Part shown: in pieces, positions 120 to 20,312 of the stretch
Layout: each line of letters starts with the position of its first letter
Numbering within the stretch: the stretch's first letter is position 1
From: Microcaldota archaeon
GTDB taxonomy: Archaea > Micrarchaeota > Micrarchaeia > Anstonellales > Bilamarchaeaceae
Length of the DNA stretch: 42,354 bases
Assembly: GCA_016212505.1 (NCBI GenBank)
Contig: JACRGB010000027.1
Coordinates: 1 to 42,354, forward strand
Direction of reading: 5' to 3'
Made by a program: the position numbers and the translations under genes
The notes under the pieces: model-generated
Database searches by the model: none
The model's input: the letters and a program-made list of their open reading frames with translations, nothing else
What the model was told of the DNA's origin: nothing

Positions 120-635
120 TTAGCGCGCAACCCGATTTATTGTTCCTAAATTATCAGTTATTTCAAAACATAAGCGCGGAGTTATTTCTATTTCCAGATC
201 TGAGAATAGTCTGCGAATTGATCGTGCTAACTTTATTGCCTCTGAAAGGTATGCCACAACCCCTTCAGCATGAACCTGGCCTGGACCAGGACAAAGTGCT
301 ATCAGGATAGTAATCTGACCGGTTTCTTTTGCCCGAGTAAGTGTACTTTCAAATGATTGATTATTTCTCAATGATGCGGAAAGGAGAGGCTGCCTTGAAC
401 CACTTTCAAATTCTAATGCAGTTATGAGTTTGGTGAGTTCAAAATCATTTTCAGCAATTGATCTTGAATATTTATGGGCCATGGACTTGCCTGAGTCAAA
501 TAACACACAAAGTCTTTCCTCTGGTAACTTGAAGGTTCTGGCTATCCTGCCAAGTTCAGTACCAGATAGGGCTAGAGTGCCCGTTAGTGCAGAAATTTTG
601 CCCGAAGAAGGTTGAGCCAATAATGCACTGGTCAC
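120..635 (-). CDS. Hypothetical protein
   Basis: 171-aa ORF with GTG start; overlaps the stop of an upstream HTH reading frame (GTGA). Confidence 0.45.
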   Translation of the reverse strand: MTSALLAQPSSGKISALTGTLALSGTELGRIARTFKLPEERLCVLFDSGKSMAHKYSRSIAENDFELTKLITALEFESGSRQPLLSASLRNNQSFESTLTRAKETGQITILIALCPGPGQVHAEGVVAYLSEAIKLARSIRRLFSDLEIEITPRLCFEITDNLGTINRVAR

Positions 636-1481: not shown

Positions 1482-2045
1482 TTAAAGACCCACATCCCCG
1501 GAAGTACCACCTATTAGTTCTATTGCCCGAGTGTTTTCTGATTTTACGGATTCTAAAGCAGTCTTTACTGAGCCTATACCGCTCATTGAAGCTTGCACAA
1601 CTTCATCATCACCACAGATCTGTTCGCAAGTCTCCCTAAAGGTACGTCCGATAACACTTTCGCTAACAGGCCCATAGATACCTGCATTATACACGAAACC
1701 TATGCGCTGATTCATTATTTCTGACTGAACACCTGTGCCACAATACCTAGATATTATCGCATATATGGCCGCTGTTCGGTCGGGTGTAGGTTTAGAACGA
1801 TCTGCAATGAAGGTTTTTATGAACTGCACGACATCTTTTTCCTCTTGCGCAATAGCTGCAATTGCACCCTCAAAACCAACCACACTTTTCTGGTGTTCTC
1901 TACCCACCACACAGATAGCATAAAATATCTCGCGTATTTTAGTACTACCAATAGGGGCTTCAGGTGCCATCTTATGCTTTGATCCAAACGAACCGCCTCC
2001 GCCTCCTTTTCTTCCTATTTCACTTTTTTGTTTCATTTTTTTCAC
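1482..2045 (-). CDS. Hypothetical protein, same operon as the editing-domain-like protein
   Basis: 187-aa ORF; its stop lies 1 nt before the downstream ATG. Confidence 0.5.
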   Translation of the reverse strand: MKKMKQKSEIGRKGGGGGSFGSKHKMAPEAPIGSTKIREIFYAICVVGREHQKSVVGFEGAIAAIAQEEKDVVQFIKTFIADRSKPTPDRTAAIYAIISRYCGTGVQSEIMNQRIGFVYNAGIYGPVSESVIGRTFRETCEQICGDDEVVQASMSGIGSVKTALESVKSENTRAIELIGGTSGDVGL

Positions 2046-6385: not shown

Positions 6386-6572
6386 TGGGCCCATTGAGAT
6401 TTGAACTCAAGACCTTTCGATTTGTGCCTTTTGGAAAAAGGCACCCCAAAACTTATTGGTTATCTATTTCCAAAAGTTATCAGTCGAACGCTCCACCGGG
6501 TTACTCGTGCTTTTTTAGCAAGTAAGTTTTTTGGTTCTTTTTTCCTAAAAAAGAACACTGAGCTATGGGCCC
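6386..6572 (-). tRNA. tRNA-Ile(GAT) with two introns (D-loop ~57 nt; anticodon loop 37/38 ~56 nt)
   Basis: Acceptor GGGCCCA/TGGGCCC+A; D-arm GCTCAG[intron]CCCGGTGGAGC; anticodon arm TTCGA-CTGATA[intron]A-TCGAA; T-arm TTGAG-TTCAAAT-CTCAA. Confidence 0.88.
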
Positions 6573-6631: not shown

Positions 6632-7747
6632 ATGAAAATTGCTATTTTTTCTGATCCTCACCTAGGTTATGCAAGGTTCGAGGAGGATTCATATGTTCAG
6701 GCAGAAAATGCAATAGTCAGTGCGTCGGAAAAGGCAGACCTAATTCTTTGCGCAGGGGATATTTTTGACATCAAAATCCCTAAGCTTGAGACATTAAAGC
6801 GTGCTGTTGAAATTTTCAAAAAGGCTAGCATACCGGTCATTGCAATACATGGAAACCATGAGAGAAGAAGCAAAGAAATGACTAATCCTGCGCAGCTACT
6901 TTCCGCAAGTACCGGAATAGTCCTCATTCATGCAAATGATGAAATATTTGAAAAAAATGGGGAAAGGATACAGGTTTTCGGAATGGGTAGCGTGCCCGAA
7001 GAATACGCGCAGGAAGCGCTCAGGCAATCGCTTAGCAGGTTCAGCGCAGATGGCTCTGCCTTCAAAATCCTGATGCTCCATCAGTCGATAAAAGAATTGA
7101 TCCCAAATGCAAAGGAAGAAATTTCGCTCGAATACCTTGAAACACTACCTTTTGATTTAATTGTAAATGGCCATATCCACGAAAAGATTAGCAAGCTAGG
7201 AGGCAAATTCATAATTCCGGGAAGCACAGTGATAACTCAGTTGAAAAAAGAGCAGATGGAAAAACGGGGATATTATTTATTTGACACAAAAACAAAACAG
7301 AATGATTTTATTGAGATAAAATCAAGAGAGTTTTTCTACGAAGAATTACATTTTAAAGAAGGCGAACCGGGCCAGATAAGGGATAGCGTAAGGGAAAAAG
7401 TGCTTGCAATAAGAAAAGAACATCCGGGTTCTATTGTGGCAATAAAGCTCTTTGGGAGCCTCAAACCTGGAATCGCTGGCGCGGACATAAAATTGGAAAA
7501 ATTCGATGAGCGGATTTTTATTGATAATAATTTAGATTCGGAAAATCTAGCGGCAAAGCTTGAAAAAATAAGGAATTTAAGGGCAGAGAATATGACAGTT
7601 AAGGATCTCGCATTAAAAGAATTAGATAAAAAGACTTCAGGAAAAATAACTATGTTCAAATCGACTGAAATTTTCGAATCGCTTGTTGAGGGAGTCGATG
7701 AGACGATTACATATCTAGAGAATACAAATAAAAAGTCTAACAAATAA
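6632..7747 (+). CDS. Mre11/SbcD-like metallophosphoesterase nuclease
   Basis: FSDPHLGY, AGDIFD, IHGNHE and NGHIHE phosphoesterase motifs. Confidence 0.85.
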   Translation: MKIAIFSDPHLGYARFEEDSYVQAENAIVSASEKADLILCAGDIFDIKIPKLETLKRAVEIFKKASIPVIAIHGNHERRSKEMTNPAQLLSASTGIVLIHANDEIFEKNGERIQVFGMGSVPEEYAQEALRQSLSRFSADGSAFKILMLHQSIKELIPNAKEEISLEYLETLPFDLIVNGHIHEKISKLGGKFIIPGSTVITQLKKEQMEKRGYYLFDTKTKQNDFIEIKSREFFYEELHFKEGEPGQIRDSVREKVLAIRKEHPGSIVAIKLFGSLKPGIAGADIKLEKFDERIFIDNNLDSENLAAKLEKIRNLRAENMTVKDLALKELDKKTSGKITMFKSTEIFESLVEGVDETITYLENTNKKSNK

Positions 7748-7804
7748 AGTTTTTCTGGTTTTGAAGAAGAAGTTTTTATCAAACTAACAAATAAGTTTTT
7801 TGAT

Positions 7805-7887
7805 GACCAATTGAACGATCGTTCGTTCAATGGTCCATTGAAGTGCATTGCACTTCAATCGGAAACTTTTTTTTCTAAAAAAAGTTT
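7805..7887. repeat. Three tandem hairpins between mre11-like gene and tRNA-Leu
   Basis: GACCAATTGAACGA-TCGT-TCGTTCAATGGTC (one bulge); ATTGAAGTGC-ATT-GCACTTCAAT (7837-7859); AAACTTTTTTT-TCT-AAAAAAAGTTT (7863-7887). Confidence 0.8.
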
Positions 7888-7891
7888 TAAT

Positions 7892-8154
7892 GCAGGGATG
7901 ACAGAGCCCGGTCAAGGGAGTTTTCAGTCTTGAGTTTCCCGTTTTGGGAAATCGAAACTGGGAACAGGAAACTGAAAACCCGACTAAATGTGCGGCGCTT
8001 AGGACGCCGTGGCTTAGTGCCTGCGCAGGTTCAAAACCCATTACTTTTGATTTATGCTTGCCTTCTGGCAAAAGTAAAGGGATTGGTCAAAAGCCAACCA
8101 GTTTCATTCCGTAACGAAACGGAAAACTGGAAACTGAGAATCCTGCTCCCTGCA
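7892..8154 (+). tRNA. tRNA-Leu(TAG) with two non-canonical introns: D-loop (~7916-7987) and T-loop (~8036-8140)
   Basis: Acceptor GCAGGGA/TCCCTGC+A; ACA-GAGCCCGGTCAA[intron]A-TGT; CGGCG-CTTAGGA-CGCCG; class II variable arm TGGCTTAGTGCCTGC; GCAGG-TTCAAA[intron]T-CCTGC. Spliced length 86 nt. Confidence 0.87.
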
Positions 8155-8238: not shown

Positions 8239-9459
8239 GTGGTGCATATGGGAAAACTTGATTTGTACAATTACCCCAAGAGGCTTGAGGGGGCGTTAGG
8301 TATGCTAAGGCAAGAGCACATCTGCGAAGAGAATAAACAGGACATAGTATCTTTTACGAAGGTACGGCTTGCCAAAGGCTCAGGACACGGCAGAGTGGCA
8401 AAAATAGTTTATTGCCTTAGGAACATGGCAAAATGGCTGAATAAGCCTTATAGGCAGGCAACGAAAGACGATTTGATAGGCCTCATTGGCGACTTGGAGG
8501 CCAATGTCAACTATGCCGAGCATACAAAATATGACTACAAGGTAGTCCTAAAAATGTTCTACAAATGGCTTTTGGGCAATGACGAATTTTTCCCTCCAGA
8601 AATAAGATGGCTCGGCCTGAAGCTTAAGAACGAAAACCACAAACTGCCCGAGCAATTGCTTACCGAAGATGAGGTATTGAAATTAGCCAACATGGCGGAA
8701 AATCTAAGAGACAAAGCGCTGATTTTGACATTATATGAGGCAGGCTGCCGGATTGGAGAGCTATTATCAATACAAATGAAAAACGTGCAATTTGACCAGC
8801 ATGGTGCCATTCTTAGAGTTAGCGGAAAAACAGGCGACAGACGCATAAGAGTGATAAGTTCCGCACCAATTCTTGGCTCATGGATCAATATGTATCCAAG
8901 ATCATCTGATCCGGATGCACCATTATGGCCATCAACCTGGAGAAACAAAAACTGCGGCATGAAAACATTGGCCTACGGCACATTGTATCAATCGCTCAAG
9001 GATCTTGCAGTAAAGGCAGGGGTTAAGAAAAAAGTTCATCCGCATTTGTTCAGGCATTCCCGAGCTACCGCATTAGCTGGAAAACTTACCGAGGCGCAGA
9101 TGAAGGAGTTGTTTGGGTGGGTTCAGGGTAGCGATATGGCTGCAACGTATGTACACCTTAGCGGCAGGGACGTTGATAACGCTTTGTTGAAATTGCACGG
9201 CTTGGCTAAGCCAGATGAAGAGCAGGAGAATAAAATGAAAGTGCAGGTCTGCCAAAGGTGCAAAGAACATAATTCGCCAATATCGAAATTCTGCACAAAG
9301 TGCGGTTTGCCTCTGGACGAAAAATTCCTAATGAGAGTAGAAAAGGAAATACAAACGGGCAATTATGTAGAAAACAAGCTATGGGAAAATGAGGAGTACA
9401 GAGAGTTTAAAATGAAGATGATAATGAAATTGGGTTTGGATAAACAGCTGATTCATTGA
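8239..9459 (+). CDS. Tyrosine recombinase/integrase with C-terminal zinc ribbon
   Basis: GCRIGELL, HLFRHSRAT and YVHLSGRDVD catalytic region; CQRCKEHNSPISKFCTKCG zinc ribbon; adjacent to a tRNA 3' end. Confidence 0.93.
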   Translation: MVHMGKLDLYNYPKRLEGALGMLRQEHICEENKQDIVSFTKVRLAKGSGHGRVAKIVYCLRNMAKWLNKPYRQATKDDLIGLIGDLEANVNYAEHTKYDYKVVLKMFYKWLLGNDEFFPPEIRWLGLKLKNENHKLPEQLLTEDEVLKLANMAENLRDKALILTLYEAGCRIGELLSIQMKNVQFDQHGAILRVSGKTGDRRIRVISSAPILGSWINMYPRSSDPDAPLWPSTWRNKNCGMKTLAYGTLYQSLKDLAVKAGVKKKVHPHLFRHSRATALAGKLTEAQMKELFGWVQGSDMAATYVHLSGRDVDNALLKLHGLAKPDEEQENKMKVQVCQRCKEHNSPISKFCTKCGLPLDEKFLMRVEKEIQTGNYVENKLWENEEYREFKMKMIMKLGLDKQLIH

Positions 9460-19370: not shown

Positions 19371-19415
19371 CTTTATAGCAAAACTTTATTAAGTATTTGC
19401 TAACCTAACAAAATC

Positions 19416-20312
19416 ATGAAGAAGATAAAGTTTGTGATTTTTGGACTTATCGTGCTTTTGCTAGTAGGATGCAGTGCACCAGTTAAAGAAAATCAAAACG
19501 GAAAATTAACCGTAGTAACTACAATTTACCCAGTTTACGATATTACGAAGAATTTAACATTTGGCTTGGCAGATGTTTCATCACTTATTCCTGCTGGAGT
19601 AGAACCTCATGAGTATGAACCGACTCCTAGCCAGGTTGCTGATCTGCAAAATGCAAATGTATTTGTAATTTCAGGACTAGGTTTTGATGCAGTTGAAGGA
19701 AAATTGGCAAGTAGCTTAAGCAAAAAGGTTAATGTAATAGTGGCAAGTGAGGGGATCGGATTGATGGATGCGACTGGAGAAGAAGCAAAAGAAATGCCAA
19801 AAGATCCTCATATATGGCTATCACCGCAAAGAATGATCATCATGACCCAGAACATCAAAGACGGTTTAGAACAAACAGATCCTGGAAATAAGAATAAATA
19901 CGAGACAAATGCCGCTGCATATGTTTCTGAGCTGCAAAAATTGGATGAAGAATACAAAAACGTTTTATCAAACTGTAATAAAGACACAATACTCACTACG
20001 CACAATGCATTCTCTTATTTATCCAAAGACTACGGGTTCAAGCAGACATCAATATCCGGGCTTAATCCTGATGCTGAGCCCAGCCCTCAGAAGTTAGCAG
20101 AACTAGTTGATGCAGCAAAAAAAGATAAAATAAAATATGTATTTTATGAAGAATTGGTTGATCCAAGAATAGCCCAAACAATAGCGAGCGAAGTCGGCGC
20201 GCAGGCTCTGGAATTAAATCCAATAGAAGGAAGCAAGAATCCTAAGGATAACTATTTTAAGATGATGAGAAGAAATTTAGTTAACCTAAGATTGGCTTTG
20301 GAGTGCAGCTAA
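19416..20312 (+). CDS. znuA: Zinc/manganese ABC transporter substrate-binding lipoprotein
   Basis: Lipobox LLVGCS; TTIYPVYDITKNL, AGVEPHEYEPTPSQ, DPHIWLSPQ, TTHNAFSYLSKDYG. Confidence 0.85.
   Translation: MKKIKFVIFGLIVLLLVGCSAPVKENQNGKLTVVTTIYPVYDITKNLTFGLADVSSLIPAGVEPHEYEPTPSQVADLQNANVFVISGLGFDAVEGKLASSLSKKVNVIVASEGIGLMDATGEEAKEMPKDPHIWLSPQRMIIMTQNIKDGLEQTDPGNKNKYETNAAAYVSELQKLDEEYKNVLSNCNKDTILTTHNAFSYLSKDYGFKQTSISGLNPDAEPSPQKLAELVDAAKKDKIKYVFYEELVDPRIAQTIASEVGAQALELNPIEGSKNPKDNYFKMMRRNLVNLRLALECS

Follow-up and report, generated by a model that had tools for sequence, protein, structure and literature searches.

Introduction

BHB splicing by an epsilon2-type endonuclease and the transposition of tRNA introns are both already known, from Thermoproteales and ARMAN archaea: in Thermoproteales, introns have been transposed among tRNAs (PMC4033280), and in the epsilon2 endonuclease two residues of the ARMAN-specific loop (ASL), Tyr160 and Lys161, are important (PMC12397907). 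How archaeal tRNA introns are gained is an open question. The description of the type species of the lineage considered here does not mention introns (PMC8561730), and a search of the accessible literature (whose coverage leaves out most subscription journals) found no description of such introns in Bilamarchaeaceae.

The locus described below lies in a 42,354-nt stretch of DNA ("the window") from a "Ca. Bilamarchaeum" species (Micrarchaeota; order Anstonellales, family Bilamarchaeaceae). Its genome belongs to the same genus as the relative designated G001, and the named relatives in an alignment of the neighboring Mre11-like phosphoesterase are mostly Candidatus Micrarchaeota. The explanation that we hold to be very probable is that the window carries a functional, single-copy tRNA-Leu(UAG) gene with two BHB introns, which would be cut by an epsilon2 EndA and the exons rejoined by RtcB, and that the intron families concerned have spread by transposition.

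Results

An interrupted tRNA-Leu(UAG) gene

Removal of 72 and 105 nt from the locus (Table 1) leaves a complete 86-nt tRNA-Leu(UAG), with the 5' start GCAGGGA-UG-ACAG, acceptor stem GCAGGGA/TCCCTGC, anticodon arm CGGCG-CUUAGGA-CGCCG (anticodon UAG), T stem GCAGG/CCUGC, and the variable arm also in place; CCA is not encoded at the 3' end. The exon junctions are GGUCAA-(72 nt)-AUGUGC in the D loop and UUCAAA-(105 nt)-UCCUGC in the T loop. In a custom spliced-alignment program (match +2, mismatch -2, flat intron cost 11), all 86 template bases match, for a score of 150 out of 172, the shortfall being the two intron penalties; across 16 control stretches taken from the window, no tRNA template scored above 23, and a chance match is excluded. 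The three exons are collinear within 263 nt, so this is neither a split nor a permuted tRNA, and the spliced product is identical at 86/86 positions to spliced orthologs.

An earlier note, made from the letters of the window, had proposed a tRNA-Leu(UAG) gene at this place with about 72 nt of intron in the D loop and 105 nt in the T loop, both away from the canonical site, an 86-nt product with intact acceptor, anticodon and T stems, and a structure that strict tRNA finders could miss. Each of these points holds, the exon boundaries being fixed by the orthologs: ARAGORN detected no tRNA in the window and cmscan at the Rfam gathering level gave no match there, so that standard tools overlook the gene. 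An intact second tRNA-Leu(UAG), which the note had named as a possible objection, was sought in the same genome (a draft of 46 contigs, 90% complete) and not found.

Table 1. Positions of the tRNA-Leu(UAG) gene, its parts, and other features discussed in the text.
Feature	Position	Strand	Remarks
tRNA-Leu(UAG) gene	window 7892-8154	+	263 nt, single copy
Exon 1: 5' acceptor strand, D stem, D loop to GGUCAA	window 7892-7915	+	identical in G001, G016
D-loop intron	window 7916-7987	+	72 nt; family B (GAGTTTTCAGTCTTGAGTTTTCGG..CGAAAC..GAAAACTGAAAAC); seed member, 76.4 bits with model R3
Exon 2: D-stem 3' strand, anticodon arm, variable arm, T stem, T loop to UUCAAA	window 7988-8035	+	
T-loop intron, site 59/60	window 8036-8140	+	105 nt; from spliced alignment and BHB analysis
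Exon 3: U60, T-stem 3' strand, acceptor 3' strand, discriminator A73	window 8141-8154	+	
tRNA-Ile(GAU)	window ~6386-6572	-	D-loop intron 57 nt (family A, ~6501-6556), anticodon-loop intron 56 nt
Palindrome chain	window 7736-7890		TTGAACGATCGTTCGTTCAA, TTGAAGTGCATTGCACTTCAA
Phage-integrase-family tyrosine recombinase	window 8239-9459	+	possible zinc ribbon
tRNA-Ile(UAU)	L173, G000:C4 ~19400-19850	-	four predicted introns
Family A intron-like element near archease	G000:C9:52496-52554 (L242)	-	
Family B element in 16S	L265 ~380-454		~75 nt
Family B element in 23S	L258 ~1501-1577		
Family B element on C28	L260 1490-1600 (G000:C28:32839-32914)		flanked by ATTCAAA, TCTCCC
R3 match on C29	C29:25428		
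Small EndA-like paralog	L008 1219-1788		189 aa
Tandem intron-like copies in G013	L043 after ~2650		AACTTTTTCTACTGTTTTACTAAGGTTAAAAGTT..CTTCCTGAGGATGAGCGTACGG

Immediately upstream of the gene there is a chain of palindromes, beside a hairpin that looks like a family A element in reverse (families are described below); palindromes of this kind, variable in their arms, are seen again close to and within other tRNA introns. Directly downstream is an ORF for a tyrosine recombinase.

Splicing signals and machinery

Both introns have a complete central helix (4/4 pairs) and 3-nt bulges of the form AA↓N, where the arrow marks the exon-intron boundary. In the D-loop intron, with the register GGUCAA↓GGGAG...GACUAA↓AUGUGC, GGUC pairs with GACU as the central helix; the bulges are AA↓G and AA↓A, and the inner helix is long (GG/CC, then GUUUUCAG/CUGAAAAC). 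The register of the T-loop intron is UUCAAA↓ACCC...CUGAGAA↓UCCUGC, with central helix UUCA/UGAG (one G-U pair) and bulges AA↓A and AA↓U; here 0/4 inner pairs are directly stacked, making this a relaxed, bulge-helix-loop-like motif. By eye, the 5' half of the T-loop intron looks like the T-loop introns of Lys-CUU and Arg-GCG, and the 3' half like family B.

The same signals are enriched across the genome. The central helix is complete in 20 of 56 aligned introns, where shuffled intron sequences reach 2.8 on average and 8 at most (n = 300), and at least three of four inner pairs are present in 26/56 (shuffles: mean 10.5, maximum 19, n = 300); boundaries were picked for pairing equally in real and shuffled sequences. 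The Leu register was set by sequence equivalence. About a third of the introns have two or fewer of the four central pairs in the chosen register, indicating either that some boundaries are uncertain or that some sites are non-BHB.

An epsilon2-type endonuclease, defined here as a three-unit alphaN-alpha-betaC chain of ~390 aa with a Tyr/His/Lys triad and ASL residues Tyr160/Lys161, is encoded in the genome: a 394-aa protein matching ARMAN-2 4FZ2/9W2K with E = 1.9e-132 and aligned by phmmer over its full length (3-390 to 5-387 of 4FZ2). In alignment to ARMAN-2 it keeps the catalytic triad (Tyr236/His251/Lys282) and ASL residues Tyr160/Lys161. RtcB (E = 5.2e-168) and archease, which assists this tRNA ligase, are also encoded. 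The BHB motifs and the endonuclease type that the earlier note had wanted checked are in place, and its supposition that the host is of Micrarchaeota type and has a relaxed endonuclease proved correct.

Assuming that these parts work together, the tRNA-Leu(UAG) gene would be transcribed with both introns; the endonuclease, relaxed via its ARMAN-specific loop, would cut each of them at the 3-nt bulges adjoining the 4-bp exon-intron helix; and RtcB, with archease, would join the exons. Transcription and splicing of the gene are likely on the evidence of its sequence, and cleavage by EndA and ligation by RtcB are the activities predicted for the encoded enzymes. Exon conservation, single copy number and the presence of this machinery together suggest that the gene is functional.

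A second, small EndA-like paralog has counterparts in nearly all 43 family genomes. Its catalytic Tyr and His are replaced by His and Lys (alignment to Methanocaldococcus jannaschii EndA), and it may have a structural or regulatory role. Endonuclease gain was considered as a cause of the intron load and rejected, since intron-poor genomes encode the epsilon2 EndA and the small paralog just as intron-rich ones do. The archease gene has a peculiarity of its own, a family A intron-like element just upstream of its start codon; autoregulation is possible.

The same locus in relatives

The tRNA-Leu(UAG) gene lies 3' of the gene for the Mre11-like phosphoesterase, and orthologous loci were located by searching for that protein. 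Spliced alignment found tRNA-Leu(UAG) at all 15 loci, i.e., the window and 14 relatives, with introns in varying combinations of D, anticodon and T loops, or with none. The spliced tRNAs of G001 and G016 are the same 86 nt base for base as that of the window, but their introns differ, being in the anticodon and T loops; the exons are therefore fixed by homology, and the introns are polymorphic within one genus. G004 has a single intron (T loop), G012 and G008 have three each, and in G005, G006 and G013 the gene is uninterrupted; the D-loop intron is missing at this locus in G004, G001, G016, G005, G006 and G013. We propose that the introns have been gained and lost quickly within the genus. 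In G013, tandem copies of an intron-like element lie downstream of the intronless tRNA-Leu.

Interrupted tRNA genes genome-wide

At least 32 of 37 tRNA genes in this genome are interrupted, the genes having been identified by spliced alignment or by reading around intron-model matches; both counts are conservative, leaving out Ala-CGC and Arg-UCG, which were read by eye. With the tRNAs of G013 as templates, 34 genes were aligned, 29 of them interrupted by a total of 56 introns (median 58.5 nt, range 25-154) at D-loop, anticodon-loop, T-loop and other sites; exon boundaries are uncertain for Phe, Ser-GGA, Trp, Leu-CAG and Leu-GAG. Intron models exposed further genes, read from the sequence: Glu-CUC (three introns; also recovered by spliced alignment), Arg-GCG (two) and Thr-CGU (three). 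The most heavily interrupted, tRNA-Ile(UAU), has four predicted introns, and two of these border a T-loop exon of 6 nt, UUCAAA. A candidate at C8:5966 (score 35) was unconvincing as a tRNA.

The window itself holds another interrupted gene, tRNA-Ile(GAU), which is uninterrupted in G013 and was missed by the tRNA tools and by the earlier note, as were the genome-wide extent of interruption and the intron families common to tRNAs and rRNAs. Six tRNAs in the genome (again, 90% complete in 46 contigs) are above the Rfam cut-off. Uninterrupted tRNAs number from 1 to 44 per genome across the family and from 2 to 39 within the genus, counts that hinge on genome completeness and strict filters.

Intron families and rRNA insertions

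Alignments (A2, A3, A5) and model searches show similar introns in different tRNA genes and at different positions, as in Thermoproteales-type transposed introns. Family A has seven seeds, in D, anticodon and T loops (A2); family B has twelve, including the Leu-UAG D-loop intron; family C occurs in anticodon and D loops, with members in G001, G010, G012 and G016, plus G041 from another genus. Homology claims at low scores are limited by the short, U/A-rich and partly palindromic nature of these families, and E-values of the custom models are rough.

Run over the whole genome, the covariance models match mostly in RNA genes. Eleven of the 12 matches of model R1 are in tRNA genes, three of them new, and the 12th is just upstream of archease. 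Model R3 recovers its 12/12 seeds in this genome and, in addition, sites in tRNA-Ala(CGC), tRNA-Arg(TCG), 16S and 23S, and two outside recognised RNA genes (on C28 and C29). The C29 site has no Rfam match. The element at the C28 site has flanks like a T arm without a recognisable 5' half, and may be a tRNA fragment. The 16S and 23S insertions belong to the same family as the Leu D-loop intron, and Rfam alignments match 16S and 23S on both sides of the element; in 16S it is within a hairpin loop (GGUAAA↓...↓UGCG) interpreted here as the 690 loop. Among the nine best R3 loci examined in other genomes, the majority, spread over several genera, again fall in tRNA genes (Ile, Lys, Arg, Met, Ser, Glu and others); the one match examined in G036 does not, and some other loci are weak.

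The U-rich 5' arm of family A can pair either with the adjacent A-rich arm, as a hairpin, or with an A-rich arm at the 3' end of the intron, as the inner BHB helix (A2); these pairings are mutually exclusive and could perhaps form a switch. The anticodon introns of Ile-GAU, Lys, Thr and Asn were considered as reverse complements of family A and rejected, reverse scores being ~18-21 bits and the element partly self-complementary.

Discussion

Could the tRNA-Leu(UAG) locus instead be a decaying pseudogene, wrecked by insertions and never spliced? Two long insertions within 263 nt, with small repeats adjoining, are what such a gene might look like, but 86/86 exon positions are preserved and identical to those of two relatives, no other Leu(UAG) gene was found in the genome, BHB pairing is above that of shuffles, and 32/37 tRNA genes are interrupted in the same way, a state that no living cell could sustain if these were pseudogenes; we consider this reading very improbable. 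Equally slight is the chance that the introns are self-splicing, as group I introns or a new kind of ribozyme. Their conserved internal cores, such as CAGGGCAAAAACCYYGGAAAAAGCCCTGAG, go beyond what BHB splicing needs, but at 25-154 nt they are too short for a group I core (P3-P8), no group I or II Rfam match was found on the window or around the gene (no group I model at gathering level or at E<=5 around the gene), BHB central helices are strongly enriched, and a matching endonuclease and ligase are encoded. An assembly or binning artefact, conceivable for a draft in 46 contigs at 90% completeness, has a negligible probability: gene order, exon sequence and the T-loop intron site recur in independently deposited assemblies.

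A different alternative concerns the route of spread, and not splicing: the elements could be MITE-like DNA transposons, inserting at any site and persisting mainly where they are excised by the endonuclease. Lookalike palindromes are seen by eye outside tRNA genes, as just upstream of tRNA-Leu; the D-loop intron of Thr-GGU contains nested palindromes flanked by TGC..TGC; and one R1 copy is upstream of archease. Against this, 11/12 R1 matches and most R3 matches in the genome are in tRNA and rRNA genes, an estimated ~1% of its length, and reverse-orientation matches are weak (~18-21 bits) and explained by self-complementarity. We think this route unlikely, and with matches concentrated in RNA genes a general dispersed MITE origin is not favoured.

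Under the preferred explanation of BHB splicing and transposition, short intron families would have spread among tRNA genes, and that of the D-loop intron also into 16S and 23S rRNA genes. These data do not decide between movement at the RNA and at the DNA level: the restriction to RNA genes speaks for movement as RNA or for strong selection, and palindromic ends with a possible TGC duplication around the nested palindrome leave a DNA route open. One tentative proposal is that Bilamarchaeaceae have mobile, small structured introns that move as RNA and insert specifically into tRNA and rRNA genes, and that, in some species but not in their sister species, they have recently come to interrupt almost all tRNA genes. 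Movement might then proceed by reverse splicing, with RtcB and the relaxed epsilon2 endonuclease as the enzymes, after which the product would be copied into DNA; specificity for tRNA and rRNA genes would follow from movement at the RNA level.

For the question of intron gain, the genus offers one tRNA gene that is intronless or has one, two or three introns, and this polymorphism, with detectable tRNAs numbering from 2 to 39 per genome and a family shared by tRNA, 16S and 23S genes, makes DNA-level and RNA-level spread directly testable. There is also a practical consequence: of at least 37 tRNA genes here, the standard Rfam model detects 6, and tRNA counts fail as a gauge of completeness in this lineage.

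Comparison with known systems

According to Fujishima (2010), as reviewed in PMC4033280 and PMC4090602, Thermoproteales-type tRNAs also carry several introns each, at canonical and non-canonical sites including D and T loops, with similar introns in different tRNA species and BHB motifs. The present host differs in being a DPANN lineage with an epsilon2 endonuclease, in having one family also in 16S and 23S rRNA, and in copy numbers that swing within one genus. Reported isodecoder medians are mostly 12-25 nt (58.5 nt here, range 25-154) and the reported maximum is three introns per tRNA gene (up to four predicted here).

ARMAN-1 and ARMAN-2, also Micrarchaeota, share the full-length homologous epsilon2 endonuclease (4FZ2, 9W2K) with its ARMAN-specific loop residues, relaxed BHB/BHL substrates, and multi-intron tRNAs, reported for both (PMC12397907). 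The lineage here is a different one (Anstonellales, Bilamarchaeaceae), with the small, catalytically altered EndA-like paralog nearly family-wide; the figure of 32/37 interrupted tRNA genes describes this genome alone. Introns in archaeal rRNA genes have counterparts in Thermoproteales 16S rRNA (PMC4496867), although the element here is small (~75 nt) and shares its family with tRNA introns of its own genome. Archaeal rRNA group I introns, known also from Micrarchaeota (PMC6125680), are catalytic and ~250-800 nt long, and Rfam detected none in the window or in the rRNA stretches searched. What the "Ca. Bilamarchaeum" introns add to these systems is their scale and fast within-genus turnover in a DPANN lineage, their length and conserved cores, and the sharing of a family among tRNA, 16S and 23S genes.
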